64,000 nucleotides of DNA from Neorhizobium sp. SOG26 (GTDB lineage Bacteria; Pseudomonadota; Alphaproteobacteria; Rhizobiales; Rhizobiaceae): contig NZ_CP025512.1 in NCBI RefSeq assembly GCF_003491345.1, positions 1,550,001 to 1,614,000 of the forward strand, read 5' to 3'. Positions 4,843 to 18,330 of the stretch are shown piece after piece (within the stretch, counting starts at the first letter, position 1; each line of letters starts with the position of its first letter). The translations under genes were made by a program, and so were the position numbers. Below the pieces are notes generated by a model. It was not told the DNA's origin, did no database searches, and worked only from the letters and a program-made list of their open reading frames with translations.

Positions 4843-6360
4843 ATGCAAGCGATGAGTGCGGCAGTGTCAAAAACAGTGTTTTCCGCATCCCCTAAGAAGG
4901 ATGCTGCGGCCATCCCGGGGTGGTTCCTCGGTTATCTTCTCACCCTCGTGATAACCCTGACGGCGTTTGCGGCTCCCGCGGCTGCGGCTCCCAAATATGC
5001 CGGCATCGTTGTCGACGCCAAGACCGGCAAGGTGCTCTATTCGGAAGATCCGGATGGCCTGCGTTATCCGGCGTCGCTCACGAAGATGATGACCCTCTAC
5101 CTCACCTTCGAAGCGCTTGAGGCCGGCCGCATCCGCCTCGACAGCACCGTTCCCGTTTCCGCCAATGCCGCCAAGGAGCCTCCGTCCAAGCTCGGCGTCC
5201 GCGCCGGTGGCTCGGTCACGGTTGACCAGGCGATCCGCGCCCTTGTCACCCGTTCGGCAAACGACATCGCAACGGCTCTCGGCGAATTCGTTGGCGGATC
5301 CGAATCCCGCTTCGCGCAGATGATGACCAGCAAGGCCCGTGCGCTCGGCATGACCCGCACCACCTACCGCAACGCGCATGGCCTGCCGAACACGGCGCAG
5401 ATGACGACGGCACGCGATCAGGCTCGCCTTGGCATCGCGCTTCGCCAGCACTTTCCGCAGTACTACCACTATTTCAGCATCCGCAGCTTCAACTTCGGCA
5501 AGCAGGTCATCGGCAACCACAATCGCCTGGTTGGCTCGGTGAAGGGTGTCGACGGCATCAAGACCGGCTATACCCGCGCCGCCGGCAGCAACCTCGCAAC
5601 CTCCGCGGAACTTGACGGCCGCTCCATCGTCGCCGTTGTACTTGGTGGTCGCTCCAGCGCCGCACGTGATGCCACCATGCGCAAGCTGGTCGCCGAATAT
5701 CTGCCGAAGGCATCGCGCGGCGGCACATCGAACCTGATCGCCCAGGCTGCACCGACCGCACCGGTTGCCGTCCCGACCGCGCCAGTTCGCTCCGAGCCGA
5801 AGGTTTCCGAAGCCCGCCAAATGGCAGCGCTTGACCTGCCGCCGGATGGTCCGCGTCCGGAATCCCGTTACAGCGAACAGCCCGCTGCATCGATCGCTCC
5901 CGCTGCTACCGCCTATGCCGGCGAATCGTCGCAGAAGAAGGTGATCAACCAGGTCATGGACAAGGCGATGGCGAATGTCTCCGCCGTCCCGACGCCTGCG
6001 CCGGAATTCATCCCCGAGCGCCGCGAAGAAGTCGCTGCCGTTCGCACCAACAAGCCGGCGCTCGACCAGGTCACCACAGCGTCGACCAAGGCTTCCAAGG
6101 CTGCAGCCCTTCCGCAGGGCTGGGTCATCCAGATCGGTGCGTCGCCTGACGAGAAGATGGCGCAGGGCCTGCTTCAGAATGCGCAGGACAAGGGTGGCAA
6201 GGTGCTGCGTTCCGCAACGCCGTTCACGGTTGCCTTCACCAACAATGGCGAACAGATGTACCGCGCCCGTTTCGGTGGCTTCGGCGACCAGAAGAAGGCG
6301 GTCGAGGCCTGCAACATGCTCAAGAAGAAGGGCATCAGCTGCTGGGCTGCCCAGCAGTAG
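4843..6360 (+). CDS. D-alanyl-D-alanine carboxypeptidase with C-terminal SPOR domain
   Basis: A 505-residue low-molecular-weight penicillin-binding protein (peptidase S11). After a signal sequence (about 28-49, ending AAPAAAA), the three active-site motifs are intact: S78-L-T-K81, S138-A-N140 and K240-T-G242. A Pro/Ala-rich linker (about 290-420) leads to a SPOR domain (about 424-505, starting at GWVIQIGA), which binds denuded glycan strands at the septum. The enzyme removes the terminal D-Ala from pentapeptides and is probably recruited to division sites. Translation could start at 4843 or at a second in-frame ATG at 4852. DacF/DacC-like enzymes with this architecture are standard in rhizobia. 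Confidence 0.93.
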   Translation: MQAMSAAVSKTVFSASPKKDAAAIPGWFLGYLLTLVITLTAFAAPAAAAPKYAGIVVDAKTGKVLYSEDPDGLRYPASLTKMMTLYLTFEALEAGRIRLDSTVPVSANAAKEPPSKLGVRAGGSVTVDQAIRALVTRSANDIATALGEFVGGSESRFAQMMTSKARALGMTRTTYRNAHGLPNTAQMTTARDQARLGIALRQHFPQYYHYFSIRSFNFGKQVIGNHNRLVGSVKGVDGIKTGYTRAAGSNLATSAELDGRSIVAVVLGGRSSAARDATMRKLVAEYLPKASRGGTSNLIAQAAPTAPVAVPTAPVRSEPKVSEARQMAALDLPPDGPRPESRYSEQPAASIAPAATAYAGESSQKKVINQVMDKAMANVSAVPTPAPEFIPERREEVAAVRTNKPALDQVTTASTKASKAAALPQGWVIQIGASPDEKMAQGLLQNAQDKGGKVLRSATPFTVAFTNNGEQMYRARFGGFGDQKKAVEACNMLKKKGISCWAAQQ

Positions 6361-11313: not shown

Positions 11314-12729
11314 TCATGGCAAAAGCCAGATCGTGGCCAGCCCGAGAAACGCGAAGAATCCTGTGGTGTCGGTAATGGCGGTCACGAAGACAGCAGACGA
11401 CACGGCCGGATCCGCGCCGGCCCGATCCAGCAGCAGCGGAATCATGATGCCTGCCATGGCCGCCGCAAACATGTTGATGAGCATGGCGGTCGCGATCAGC
11501 CCGCCGATATGGGGATCCTGAAACCATAGGCCTGCCACGGTGCCGACAAGAACCCCGATCACGACGCCGTTGATAAGCCCGACCCCTGCTTCGCGCCGGG
11601 CCACGCGCCAGGCGTTGTGGATGTCGAGATTGCGTGTCGCAAGCGCCCGCACGGTCACAGTCATCGTCTGCGAGCCGGCATTGCCGCCCATGCCGGCGAC
11701 GATCGGCATCAGAATCGCCAGTGCGACGACTTCCTCGATCGTTGCCTCGAAAAGCGAGATGACCGAGGCGGAAATGAAGGCAGTGAACAGGTTGACGAGC
11801 AGCCAGGGAATGCGTGACCGCGATGTCTGTTTCACGGAGTCGGACAGTTCTTCGTCACCCACGCCGGAGAGGCGCATGATGTCCTCTTCCGCCTCTTCCT
11901 GGATGACGTCCACGACATCGTCGATCGTCAGCACGCCGACGAGGCGGCCGTTGTTGTCAACGACGGCGGCGGAGAGAAGGTCGTATTGCTCGAAAAGCTG
12001 CGCGGCCTCTTCCTGGTCCATGTCGGCGGGAACCGGATAGTTGGTTTCCCGCATGATCGCCTCGATCTTCACCCCGCGCTTGGTGCGCAGGATCTTGTCG
12101 AGATAGACCACGCCAAGCAGCTTGAAGGTCGGGTCGACGACAAAGATCTGCGTAAAGCTTTCCGGCAGGTCCGCTTCTTCGCGCATGTAGTCAATCGTCT
12201 GCCCCACCGTCCAGAACGGCGGCACGGCGACAAACTCCGTCTGCATGCGGCGCCCGGCTGACTGCTCGGGATAATCCAGCGCCCGGCGCAGCCGCACCCG
12301 CTCGGTAAACGGCAGTTGCGCGAGGATCTCTTCGCGATCCTCCTGGTCGAGGTCTTCCAGAATGTAGACGGCGTCATCCGAATCAAGATCGCCGATCGCC
12401 GCTGCGATCTGCGCATTCGGCATCTGGTCGACGATTTCCATGCGGATCGCTTCATCGACCTCGGTCAGCGCCGTCAGGTCGAAATCGTCGCCAAGCAGCC
12501 GAACAAGCGCCAGACGCTGTTCGGGCGGAATCGATTCCAGCAGGTCGCCAAGCTCGGACTCATGCAGGCGCGCCACATGCTTGCGCAGGAAAGAGGTATC
12601 GGCATCGGCGATGGCCGCACCAACGGCGGCAAGGAAATCGCCCCGGATCGAGCCGTTTTCGGCGTAGATGTCGGCAGTTGCCTCATCAAGCTTGGTGCGG
12701 GGGCGAATGTCTTCACCGGTATCGCTCAT
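11314..12729 (-). CDS. mgtE: Magnesium transporter MgtE
   Basis: A 471-residue transporter in the full MgtE arrangement: an N-terminal superhelical domain (about 30-135, with LLESIPPEQRLALVRLLGDD), tandem CBS domains (about 140-265), a plug helix and five C-terminal transmembrane helices with the LAILMPIVAGMGGNAGSQ pore signature. The cytosolic part senses Mg2+ and closes the channel when Mg2+ is abundant. The start at 12729 is supported by GAGGGCGG upstream; earlier codons to 12783 look non-coding. The gene diverges from the deformylase-like gene with about 200 bp between them. Confidence 0.96.
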   Translation of the reverse strand: MSDTGEDIRPRTKLDEATADIYAENGSIRGDFLAAVGAAIADADTSFLRKHVARLHESELGDLLESIPPEQRLALVRLLGDDFDLTALTEVDEAIRMEIVDQMPNAQIAAAIGDLDSDDAVYILEDLDQEDREEILAQLPFTERVRLRRALDYPEQSAGRRMQTEFVAVPPFWTVGQTIDYMREEADLPESFTQIFVVDPTFKLLGVVYLDKILRTKRGVKIEAIMRETNYPVPADMDQEEAAQLFEQYDLLSAAVVDNNGRLVGVLTIDDVVDVIQEEAEEDIMRLSGVGDEELSDSVKQTSRSRIPWLLVNLFTAFISASVISLFEATIEEVVALAILMPIVAGMGGNAGSQTMTVTVRALATRNLDIHNAWRVARREAGVGLINGVVIGVLVGTVAGLWFQDPHIGGLIATAMLINMFAAAMAGIMIPLLLDRAGADPAVSSAVFVTAITDTTGFFAFLGLATIWLLP

Positions 12730-12931
12730 CTGCCGCCCTCGCCGTTTGACGTTCACTGGAACACCTGGGACAGGACCGGCCACGACGCAAACGACTCTGC
12801 CGGACCCACCCTATCAACCGTCTGCTAAAACAATCGGTTGGAGGCGTCCAGCCAAGAACCTAATTCCGCAGCTTGAGCCGCCAAGCCCCCGCCGGCTAAG
12901 TGTCTGGCGAAAAGATTTAAAAGAGGCTGCC

Positions 12932-13426
12932 ATGACCGTGCTTCCGCTGGTGAAATATCCCGATCCACGCCTTTCACAACCCTGTGACGCCGTGACGACC
13001 TTCGATGACGAACTATCAAGATTCGCGCATGACCTGCTGGACACGATGCGGGCTGCCCCCGGCGTCGGCATTACGGCGGCGCATGTCGGCGTGTTGCAGC
13101 GCCTCGTCGTGCTTGAGCTGTCTGCGGAAATCGGACCGCGCTTCTACGTTAATCCCGAACTTCTCGATGCCTCTGCGCAGACCATGCGCCACATGGAAGG
13201 CAGTGTCTCGATGCCGGGCGCGACCGAAGAAGTGGAGCGTCCGCGGCGGATCCGCTTTCGCTATCAGGATCTGAAGGGCGAGACGCACGAGGAGGAGGCA
13301 CAGGACTTCTACGCCATCTGCATGCAGCACGAGATCGACCAACTGAACGGTATCTTCTGGCTGAAGCGCCTCTCGCGGTTGAAACGCGACCGCGTCATCC
13401 GCAAGTGGGAAAAGGGAAAATCGTGA
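12932..13426 (+). CDS. Peptide deformylase-like protein, active site degenerate
   Basis: A 164-residue protein with the peptide deformylase fold but altered motifs. Motif 1 reads GVGITAAHVG instead of GxGLAAxQ. Motif 2 reads EGSVS instead of EGCLS, losing the Cys metal ligand. Motif 3 reads QHEIDQLNG instead of QHExDHLxG, keeping the catalytic Glu but losing one His ligand. It is therefore unlikely to bind the catalytic Fe2+ normally. Several rhizobia encode such a deformylase-like paralogue in addition to a functional Def. The start at 12932 has AAGAGGCTG upstream. Its role is unknown; binding of N-terminal peptides without deformylation is a possibility. Confidence 0.88.
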   Translation: MTVLPLVKYPDPRLSQPCDAVTTFDDELSRFAHDLLDTMRAAPGVGITAAHVGVLQRLVVLELSAEIGPRFYVNPELLDASAQTMRHMEGSVSMPGATEEVERPRRIRFRYQDLKGETHEEEAQDFYAICMQHEIDQLNGIFWLKRLSRLKRDRVIRKWEKGKS

Positions 13427-13563
13427 GCCGCGCCAGAACCAAAACCCGCTTCGTCCGTTGTTTGTCCACAGACGCGTCAGGCGTGCCCTGACCGGTAACG
13501 CGGTGCCTACTCCAGCCAGTTGAAACGCTCGGGGACGCACCGGACACACGACAGGAGACAGAC

Positions 13564-14061
13564 ATGCCAGCCAAGCGCAACGTCGACGAGATCAACAGGG
13601 AAGAAGACTTCCGCGACTACGACACTCGCAACATTGATCAGGGCTGGCCATACGACGACGCCAGCGGCGCCGGCGCCAAGCCGATCGAAAACGCGGCCTA
13701 TGGTGACCCCAACGCCAATTTCGATGATGAGCGCAACCGCGGCTTCACCGTCGACAAGACAGAGGCCGACGGCCAGGAAGAGCGCCTTGTCGACAGCGAC
13801 CGGCCGGGTACCGAGGGCCTGGAAGAATCGGACGATCTCGAAGAGCGCATCACTGACGCGATTGAGAACCTTGACCTCGTCGACATGGCGCTGATCGACA
13901 TCGATGTCGAAGACGGGGTCGTGACGATCGACGGCGGAGTCGACGATGCGCAGACGTCCCGCACGATCGGCCGCCACATCCAGGCCCTGCGAGGCGTCAG
14001 AAGCGTCGTCAACAACCTGCGTATCGAGGGCGTCGACGCCCGCATACCTGACGACGACTAG
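13564..14061 (+). CDS. BON domain-containing protein
   Basis: A very acidic 165-residue protein. The first 95 residues are polar and probably disordered; residues about 95-160 form a BON domain (LEERITDAIENL, then VTIDGGVDDAQTSRTIGRHIQALRGVRSVVNNL). BON domains bind phospholipid and occur in osmotic-shock proteins such as OsmY, but this copy has no signal peptide, so it may be cytoplasmic. A GGAGACAGAC ribosome site precedes ATG 13564. The stop overlaps the convergent OsmC-family stop by four bases. Confidence 0.88.
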   Translation: MPAKRNVDEINREEDFRDYDTRNIDQGWPYDDASGAGAKPIENAAYGDPNANFDDERNRGFTVDKTEADGQEERLVDSDRPGTEGLEESDDLEERITDAIENLDLVDMALIDIDVEDGVVTIDGGVDDAQTSRTIGRHIQALRGVRSVVNNLRIEGVDARIPDDD

Positions 14062-17598: not shown

Positions 17599-18330
17599 AT
17601 GAGCGCGTCCCGCTTCTCGTTTCCGGCCTGTGTCATCGCCGGCGCAAACCGTATCTCGACCGATGAAATCCTGCTGCTGCGTAAATACACCTTTCCGGAC
17701 GGTGTTCGCACGCTGGAAGACGCTCGCACGCTTCTTGCACTTGCACATTGCTGCCCGGAAGCGTCTCCGGAATGGGAGGTCTTCTTCATTGAAAGCCTGA
17801 CGCGTTTCCTTGTCCAAGAGACGCCGCCGAGAGGTGCGATTAGTGAAGCGGGCGCTCGGTGGCTGATGCGAAACATTTCCGATGACGGCGTGGTCACGTC
17901 CGTGCTGGAACTAGAACTGCTTCTGCATGTGATGGAGGTATCCGCCGAGGTGCCGGACAGCCTCTCCGCCTTCGCGCTGGACCAGATGCGGCACGCGATC
18001 GTCTCGCGTACAGGAGGCTATGCGGTGAGCCGCCCGGACTCGCGCGGCGTCTGCATCCACGATCTTCATTATCTCTGGCGGGTCTTGAGAGGCGCGCTTG
18101 TGCGCGGCCGGCTGATGTTGTCATCCCGCGAGGGGGCCATCCTCAAGGCAATCGACCGTGCCGCTCCCACATCGGAGCATCATCCGGCATGGCGAGAAAT
18201 GATGGTTCTGGTCGTGACACTCGATCGGCCGGCCGACGACTTGCGAAGCGACGATGGCTGGAGATGGATAATCTGCCGCCTTTGGACGATGACATCGCTG
18301 CCTGAACGTCGATGGCTGCAATCCCATTGA
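17599..18330 (+). CDS. Unrecognised soluble protein (243 aa)
   Basis: A good-codon frame with ATG 17599 preceded by a purine-rich GGAGATGGAAG. The product is alpha-helical and soluble, with an N-terminal ISTDEILLLRKYTFPDGVRTLEDARTLL-like segment repeated in looser form in the middle (LELELLLHVMEVSAEVPDSL) and near residues 170-185 (LMLSSREGAILKAIDRAA). This repeated E-LL-H/R-TF pattern recalls TerB-like helical repeats but I cannot assign a family. It lies between a DMT transporter and a GNAT; no operon logic is evident. Confidence 0.7.
   Translation: MSASRFSFPACVIAGANRISTDEILLLRKYTFPDGVRTLEDARTLLALAHCCPEASPEWEVFFIESLTRFLVQETPPRGAISEAGARWLMRNISDDGVVTSVLELELLLHVMEVSAEVPDSLSAFALDQMRHAIVSRTGGYAVSRPDSRGVCIHDLHYLWRVLRGALVRGRLMLSSREGAILKAIDRAAPTSEHHPAWREMMVLVVTLDRPADDLRSDDGWRWIICRLWTMTSLPERRWLQSH

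Follow-up and report, generated by a model that had tools for sequence, protein, structure and literature searches.

The open reading frame at 12932..13426 on the forward strand of the window, a stretch of 64,000 nucleotides from Neorhizobium sp. SOG26, encodes a peptide deformylase (PDF)-like paralogue of the NF009484 subfamily, 164 amino acids plus stop, which was identified by its reading frame, its matches to PF01327 and NF009484 and its predicted fold. It belongs to a clade in which the metal site of PDF has been rewritten in the same way throughout. The fold, the superfamily and the NCBIfam grouping under the name peptide deformylase were known. Deformylation is essential and is a target of antibiotics, and this clade, annotated as deformylase, has been kept through the rhizobia and their relatives without two of the three metal ligands. 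If the paralogue is truly a binder only, it would act in the cell to antagonize or to time the deformylation of nascent chains on the ribosome, and if it is truly a catalyst, it would contain a new metal site within the PDF fold. Under either reading, how many "multiple deformylases" a genome is said to have, and what is expected of PDF inhibitors in these bacteria, would need correcting.

Fold and metal-site residues of the paralogue

A likely ribosome binding site, AGAGG, was read in the sequence at 12922..12926 on the forward strand, 5 nt upstream of the ATG. In profile searches, residues 4-152 matched PF01327 with 149 bits (cut-off 22.8), a score which places the protein in the PDF superfamily, and the best NCBIfam model was NF009484 (264.9 bits, cut-off 190), the runner-up being NF001159 with 128.9 bits. 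The AlphaFold2 model (pLDDT 96.7, pTM 0.91), for which the window protein and its relatives' loci were aligned in 92 rows and in which metals are not modelled, has a complete PDF fold including a C-terminal helix at residues 149-163. When compared with the solved PDFs 1n5n, 6ck7, 4az4 and 1xen (Foldseek, VIA-align), the model gave Z scores of 26.0-26.2 and rmsd values of 1.3-1.7 over 162-164 residues. For 1n5n from P. aeruginosa Z was 26.2 over 164 residues, and the E. coli structures 4az4 and 1xen both had Z 26.0. The paralogue has 39 % amino acid identity with the P. aeruginosa PDF, and the named records nearest to it are from Neorhizobium huautlense (80 % identity), followed by other Neorhizobium and by Rhizobium.

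Residues 2..164 of the model align to residues 1..163 of the E. coli chains 4az4 and 1xen, and the stretches containing the motifs are free of gaps in the alignment to the solved PDFs. Since the offset is one residue, H51, S91, H133, E134 and Q137 of the paralogue correspond to E. coli Gln50, Cys90, His132, Glu133 and His136, where we take Gln50, His132, Glu133 (the general base) and His136 to be the correct E. coli numbers. The Cys90 position is the one named for the Salmonella enzyme (PMC7683392).

The Gln of motif I, the Cys ligand of motif II (EGCxS) and the second His of motif III (HExxH) are all three absent from the paralogue. The codon of His51 is at 13082..13084 (forward strand), a position with His in 165/165 proteins of the clade and Gln in 64/64 canonical PDFs, and this change from Gln to His in motif I is a third swap, as invariant as the two ligand swaps. 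The codons of Ser91 (13202..13204, forward strand; Ser in 165/165, Cys in 64/64) and of Gln137 (13340..13342, forward strand; Gln in 165/165, His in 64/64) lie at positions by which the class was partly assigned; the type was decided on motifs II and III without the use of position 51, and it is therefore partly by construction that S91 and Q137 do not vary within a type. The first His of motif III and the general base Glu are kept as His133 and Glu134 (codons 13328..13333, forward strand), both in 165/165 and 64/64 proteins.

For these counts, PDF proteins were pulled from the fetched loci by phmmer and identical ones were collapsed, which gave 165 distinct paralogues with H51/S91/Q137 (the window protein itself, 96 sequences of the genome sample, 64 on contigs of named genomes and 4 on plasmid records) and 64 canonical PDFs with Q/C/H. 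Among the rows sorted there was no intermediate, with a single or double swap, between the two types. The first extraction contained no "other" row among 157 (the length filter lost none, and 17 were duplicates), and in the second all 19 non-paralogue rows had EGCLS and HExDH. The search behind the 64 named rows had EGSVSMPG and CxQHEIDQ among its patterns and so leans towards the swapped letters. The genome sample and the window together gave 97 rows, from 17 family codes and 26 genus codes, through profile searches in which the letters were not individually required. Over all 26 of these genus codes the changed residues were unvarying. Chance or sequencing error is excluded, since the same three letters occur in all 165 distinct relatives.

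Like the canonical type-1 Def of E. coli and P. aeruginosa (PF01327, TIGR00079), the paralogue has the PDF fold, the general base Glu, the first motif III His and a basic C-terminal helix with most of the ribosome-contact residues. Unlike canonical Def, it has Ser for Cys90, Gln for His136 and His for Gln50, mostly Val for Leu91 (V92 in 160/165), Gly at 96 (G96 in 165/165) and Phe-Trp instead of Leu-Phe after motif III (F142 in 165/165, W143 in 164/165), where R146 also replaces His or Tyr in 162/165 paralogues. Residues G46, E89, G90, R103, H133, E134 and D136 are invariant in the paralogues and in the canonical rows.

The initial annotation of this DNA, made from the sequence, had read motif II as EGSVS, motif III as HEIDQ and the end of motif I as AHVG, and both the sequence (GVGITAAHVG, EGSVS and QHEIDQL) and the structural alignment agree with these letters and their placement. 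The profile alignment to Def families which it proposed is that given above (149 bits for PF01327, 264.9 bits for NF009484). Its statements that fold-level features and the catalytic Glu remain are borne out by the predicted PDF fold (pLDDT 96.7, Z 26) and by E134 in every paralogue, and the replacements of Cys by Ser and His by Gln, for which it had considered errors of alignment or sequencing, are real, as they recur in 165/165 relatives and lie in gap-free alignment. What it had presented as a single odd case is instead a whole clade, covered by one NCBIfam model (NF009484) and including 165 distinct relatives.

Distribution, origin and selection

NF009484 was over its cut-off in 57/57 genomes of the window's genus. 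By profile score, the paralogue was present in 76 of 397 genomes of the order, 75 with a row of at least 208.8 bits and one (G436, locus L244) with a row of 195.3 bits which was checked; the sequence was read for 52 of these 76 carriers, and the other 24 were counted by score alone. Altogether 89 genomes of the order were over the cut-off, of which 13 appear to pass only through canonical Defs at 190-198 bits. The class sample contained 15 carriers among 385 genomes (12 of 380 outside the order, all 12 sequences read), and the phylum sample 24 among 398, all of them Alphaproteobacteria, with none in the sampled Pseudomonadota outside Alphaproteobacteria. All carrier counts were taken by eye from tables. 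None of the 14 control genomes was over the NF009484 cut-off. The model (PRK12846.1-5) recovers the clade, every row of at least 208 bits that was read as sequence being of the H/S/Q type, and it is also near to canonical Defs, of which 16 that were read score 186-198 bits, near or above the cut-off of 190. Two candidates were rejected as their sequences proved canonical, namely G1037, the 25th genome over the cut-off in the phylum sample, and a Methylobacterium (H14, locus L263).

Within the window's family the distribution is patchy, with the paralogue in 5/5 genomes of one genus code (g26) and 1/8 of another (g27). Named records with a member are from Rhizobium, Neorhizobium, Agrobacterium, Sinorhizobium, Bradyrhizobium and others. 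Viral contigs contained no relative (27 pattern matches, none confirmed by tblastn), and a phage origin was rejected on this ground and because the sole PHROG matched is the general phage peptide deformylase family. Members read as sequence are found on plasmid-labelled records of Shinella, Acuticoccus, Mesorhizobium, Sinorhizobium, Aminobacter and Tistrella. Judging from their size, a 3.7-Mb "pSymB" record (CP090106.1) and a 4.6-Mb Shinella record (NZ_CP069303.1) in PLSDB look like mislabelled chromosomes; CP090106.1 holds the sdaA-mgtE-def block of the window, and the replicon labels therefore look wrong. In the Mesorhizobium PLSDB records NZ_CP080528.1, NZ_CP050299.1 and CP050295.1, the query matches in two pieces, which may be broken copies carried by large plasmids.

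A PF01327 search of the strain's own genome (4.56 Mb, 3 contigs) found two genes, the paralogue and a canonical def at G000:C1:48127 (L001:1492-2004 = G000:C1:48118-48618) with EGCLS, HEIDH and GIQIG. The frame downstream of the canonical def is fmt-like, as named from its translation. The initial annotation had suggested looking for a second, intact def gene in the genome, and this is the gene found, adjoining fmt. In the genus and order tables, as read by eye, every carrier of the paralogue has at least two PDF matches, and because each has at least one further match, no carrier need rely on the paralogue.

Some further copies were noted. Two genomes of the genus have a third PDF copy (L249 in G020 and L250 in G064) with intact EGCLS and HExDH and a very long branch. 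A canonical-like PDF gene (G016:C1:2079804-2080300) is in two pieces in a genome that is 91 % complete, probably as a result of assembly errors. The paralogue of G061 (locus L129, G061:C1:70865-81349, near 5000-5500) is in two overlapping pieces, matching model positions 1-38 and 36-162, and its split is a frameshift, either real or of assembly.

Thinning at 80 % identity left 119 rows (82 paralogues and 37 canonical PDFs) for a maximum likelihood tree, calculated with columns 51, 91 and 137 removed. In it the paralogues formed one side of a branch with UFBoot 100 and SH-aLRT 97, recovered in 200/200 bootstrap trees. Canonical alphaproteobacterial PDFs are across the branch, and the clade nests among them in this tree, which was calculated without type 3 reference sequences; the root was placed at the midpoint, and the long third-copy rows L249 and L250 are unsure in place. 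Mean identity was 61 % among paralogues (from 2000 random pairs) and 59 % among canonical PDFs, and 41 % between the two. These sequence comparisons point to a single origin of the paralogue from a type-1 peptide deformylase of Alphaproteobacteria.

Among 16 genomes of the genus with both genes (120 pairs), the paralogue averages 72 % amino acid identity and Def 86 %. The median dN/dS (Nei-Gojobori) was 0.20 (0.10-0.33) for the paralogue and 0.083 (0-0.17) for the canonical gene, in a same-genome comparison limited to the 32 of 120 pairs in which both dS values were <1, from which it follows that the paralogue is constrained, though less than Def. The medians over all pairs, 0.384 for the paralogue and 0.368 for the canonical gene, show no difference, but they come mostly from distant pairs with dS near saturation and are not relied on here.

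Ribosome docking and proposed function

The C-terminal helix of the model (residues 149-163, codons 13376..13420, forward strand) carries L150, K151, R154, K158 and K161, the equivalents of ribosome-contact residues in E. coli. According to the main text of a 2025 survey of PDFs, the E. coli enzyme contacts uL22 through L149, K150, R153 and K157 and 23S rRNA through K160 and R163, and R153 bonds to E52 of uL22 (PMC12690207). Five of these six contact residues are kept in the helix of the paralogue, as in the docking helix of a type-1 PDF. Across the 165 paralogues, the equivalents are conserved in 162 (L150), 165 (K or R at 151), 163 (R154), 163 (K or R at 158) and 165 (K or R at 161) rows; the R163 equivalent is not conserved, with R in 52/165 rows and a gap in 33.

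Position 154 is R in 31/64 and M in 28/64 canonical rows. At this uL22-contact position, Arg in the paralogue is set against Met in the main canonical Def in 15/15 genomes of the genus for which both genes are among the distinct rows; in four genomes from other families (f18, f20, f42 and f45) the paralogue and the canonical copy both have Arg. Because of this canonical Arg, the claim that the paralogue docks better fails for the clade as a whole. Of the 21 canonical rows from the window's family (family code f1), 19 have Met at the position, the exceptions being L249 and L250; G020, one of the 15 genomes, has besides its two other genes a third copy with canonical motifs and R at 154. The strain's own uL22 has a Glu in the stretch KKTLESAIANAENN, which we presume to match E52 of E. 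coli uL22, and as the protein reads in this way around the site, the acidic partner seems to be present. The ribosome-facing part of the paralogue is conserved about as tightly as in Def and the metal site is not, which is the strongest hint to function, and the protein would dock at the ribosome in the manner of PDF, via its C-terminal helix.

Two kinds of PDF described earlier are partly similar. Type 3 PDFs, from archaea and trypanosomatids and as accessory copies in S. aureus and S. pneumoniae, have substitutions in motifs I and II and are mostly weak or inactive, some being reported active (excerpts of PMC12690207 and PMC5591237). The paralogue likewise has substitutions in motifs I and II, but in addition its motif III has lost a ligand, its changed letters are invariant and its C-terminal helix is kept; its clade, moreover, nests among canonical PDFs of Alphaproteobacteria, in the tree built without type 3 sequences. 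In Vibrio Def2 the motifs are intact and the Arg contacting uL22 is lost, so that this Arg differs between the two Vibrio copies (main text of PMC12690207). The paralogue resembles Def2 in being an accessory copy beside another Def and in the difference of this Arg between copies, and it is the reverse of Def2 in having lost the motifs and kept the Arg. In carrying Met at the uL22-contact position, the canonical Defs of the window's family match what is reported for Vibrio Def2 (PMC12690207).

Excerpts of a study of Salmonella PDF state that activity requires Cys90, that a C90S copy, unlike the wild type, fails to rescue zinc-stressed cells, and that NO inactivates the enzyme through S-nitrosylation of Cys90 (PMC7683392). 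A standard Fe(II) deformylase is unlikely because Salmonella needs Cys90 and C90S does not rescue; having neither Cys90 nor His136, the paralogue would not be expected to hold Fe(II) in the usual way or to do standard deformylase work. The suggestion in the initial annotation that the protein is inactive, or has another chemistry or a binding role, fits the data, as the ligands are swapped clade-wide and the Salmonella C90S copy fails (PMC7683392).

The reading we prefer, with somewhat less than an even chance of being right, is that the paralogue docks on the ribosome and binds formyl-Met ends, hydrolysing nothing or little. The protein would have split once from a type-1 PDF and then changed its use, keeping the PDF fold and cleft seen in the predicted model and docking at the ribosomal tunnel exit by the C-terminal helix. 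The formyl-methionine end of the nascent chain would be bound and not hydrolysed, or hydrolysed far more slowly than by Def, with His51, Ser91, Gln137, His133 and Glu134 acting mainly as a hydrogen-bonding pocket which replaces the metal. Occupation of the PDF site on the ribosome may then set when, or on which chains, canonical Def acts. In support of this, two of the three metal ligands are replaced in every member read, the strain's own genome has an intact canonical Def, and carriers in the genus and order tables have a further PDF match; the single origin, the purifying selection, the complete predicted fold and the kept ribosome contacts count in its favour too. Several points count against it: the general base Glu134 is invariant (165/165) and need not be kept by a pure binder, His51 is exactly where a replacement ligand could sit, the E. 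coli rRNA contact R163 is not kept, and T. brucei type 3 PDFs with altered motifs are reported active (cited in PMC12690207).

The paralogue could instead be a re-ligated metalloenzyme, a possible reading about which we are doubtful, in which His51 and His133 would bind the metal, helped by one or both of Gln137 and Ser91 or by water, Glu134 would be the general base, and formyl-Met or a related N-acyl end would be hydrolysed with another metal. It accords with the invariance of Glu134, His133, Gly46, Glu89, Gly90, Arg103 and Asp136 in both classes, with the gain of His51, a new potential ligand next to the metal position, on the branch that also lost the other two, and with the lack of any single or double swap among the rows sorted; Ser and Gln are weak ligands, however, and Cys90 is required in the Salmonella enzyme (PMC7683392). 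With the Cys ligand gone, such a site would possibly be less sensitive to NO and oxidants, a notion favoured by the inactivation of Salmonella PDF by NO through Cys90 (PMC7683392). That a PDF-fold hydrolase with a metal site rebuilt in this way (His51 in; Cys90 and His136 out) carries out ribosome-docked N-terminal processing where the thiol-ligated iron PDF fails, for instance under NO or peroxide in legume nodules or in soil competition, is unlikely.

It seems to us more improbable again that the paralogue is an active accessory deformylase which tolerates the swaps, a spare or inhibitor-resistant Def like Def2 of Vibrio cholerae. The survey does report that 80 % of PDFs carry its updated motifs and that 7.1 % of reference genomes are without any PDF of exactly these motifs, argues that the exact motifs are not always needed, and shows that an accessory PDF can reduce susceptibility to actinonin (main text of PMC12690207); NCBIfam, too, lists its model as an equivalog called peptide deformylase. 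The paralogue lacks two direct ligands, however, the Cys and both His are above the 95 % cut-off in the survey's genomes with a single PDF (PMC12690207), and no carrier in the genus and order tables is without at least one further PDF match. A decaying duplicate heading for loss is scarcely credible and is already contradicted by the present data. Its patchiness beyond the window's genus (76/397 genomes of the order by score), a rate faster than that of canonical def (dN/dS 0.20 vs 0.083) and the one genus copy split over two frames (G061) could be read as decay, but H51, S91 and Q137 are fixed in 165/165 rows, including the 97 of the genome sample and the window (17 family and 26 genus codes), the gene is present in 57/57 genomes of the genus, and all 32 dN/dS values are within 0.10-0.33. 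The view of the initial annotation that the gene is not obviously decaying thus holds, given purifying selection (median dN/dS 0.20) and swaps that are invariant over 26 genus codes. A metal-free hydrolase with Ser91, His133 and Glu134 (or His51) as nucleophile and base is also very improbable; all four residues are invariant, yet we know of no precedent for a metal-free Ser/His/Glu hydrolase in the PDF fold.

Annotation, literature and gene neighbourhood

The five annotated records that were opened label the member "peptide deformylase", and two further records carry no annotation. Some UniProt entries for rhizobia presumably read "peptide deformylase-like", and those who curate them may already be aware that the residues are missing. 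Judged by its ligand set, which argues against the function implied by the "equivalog" type and the name peptide deformylase, NF009484 does not appear to have earned either, and databases which name the paralogue a deformylase are probably wrong on what it does.

No paper and no experiment on the clade was found in titles and abstract openings of the open-access literature, and the main text of PMC12690207 has no word starting with "Rhizob" or "Agrobacterium", the hosts of the clade not being named there. In Table 4 of an S. meliloti association study, "peptide deformylase" (COG0242), copy unspecified, is among the functions linked to nodule competition (PMC8407117), a listing which is a lead and not evidence. 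An excerpt of a globin study places a peptide deformylase gene, again of unspecified copy, near some rhizobial globin-coupled sensors (PMC4648194). The "deformylase" in the excerpt of PMC3382624 is another enzyme and was set aside.

The neighbourhood of the window is shared by 12 of the 14 loci of its family that have flanks, and in an annotated S. meliloti record sdaA - DUF599 - DUF1624 - MerR - mgtE are beside the gene, with mgtE divergent. Neighbours were called crudely, as stop-to-stop frames with antisense frames included. Each of the 25 largest clusters, the smallest of which has 7 loci, represented the PDF gene itself or frames antisense to it, or was confined to the window's family, and among them no neighbour was shared outside that family; the search for an operon partner through guilt by association failed for this reason. 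There was no Rfam match at the gathering threshold at 12700-13600, and a scan of 12600-13600 for sigma-70-like and terminator-like sites found none, a result of little weight in Alphaproteobacteria. A frame of 243 amino acids at 17599-18330 of the window matched no Pfam family at E 0.001. The paralogue gene is followed by one for a BON-domain protein, at 13564-14061 of the window.
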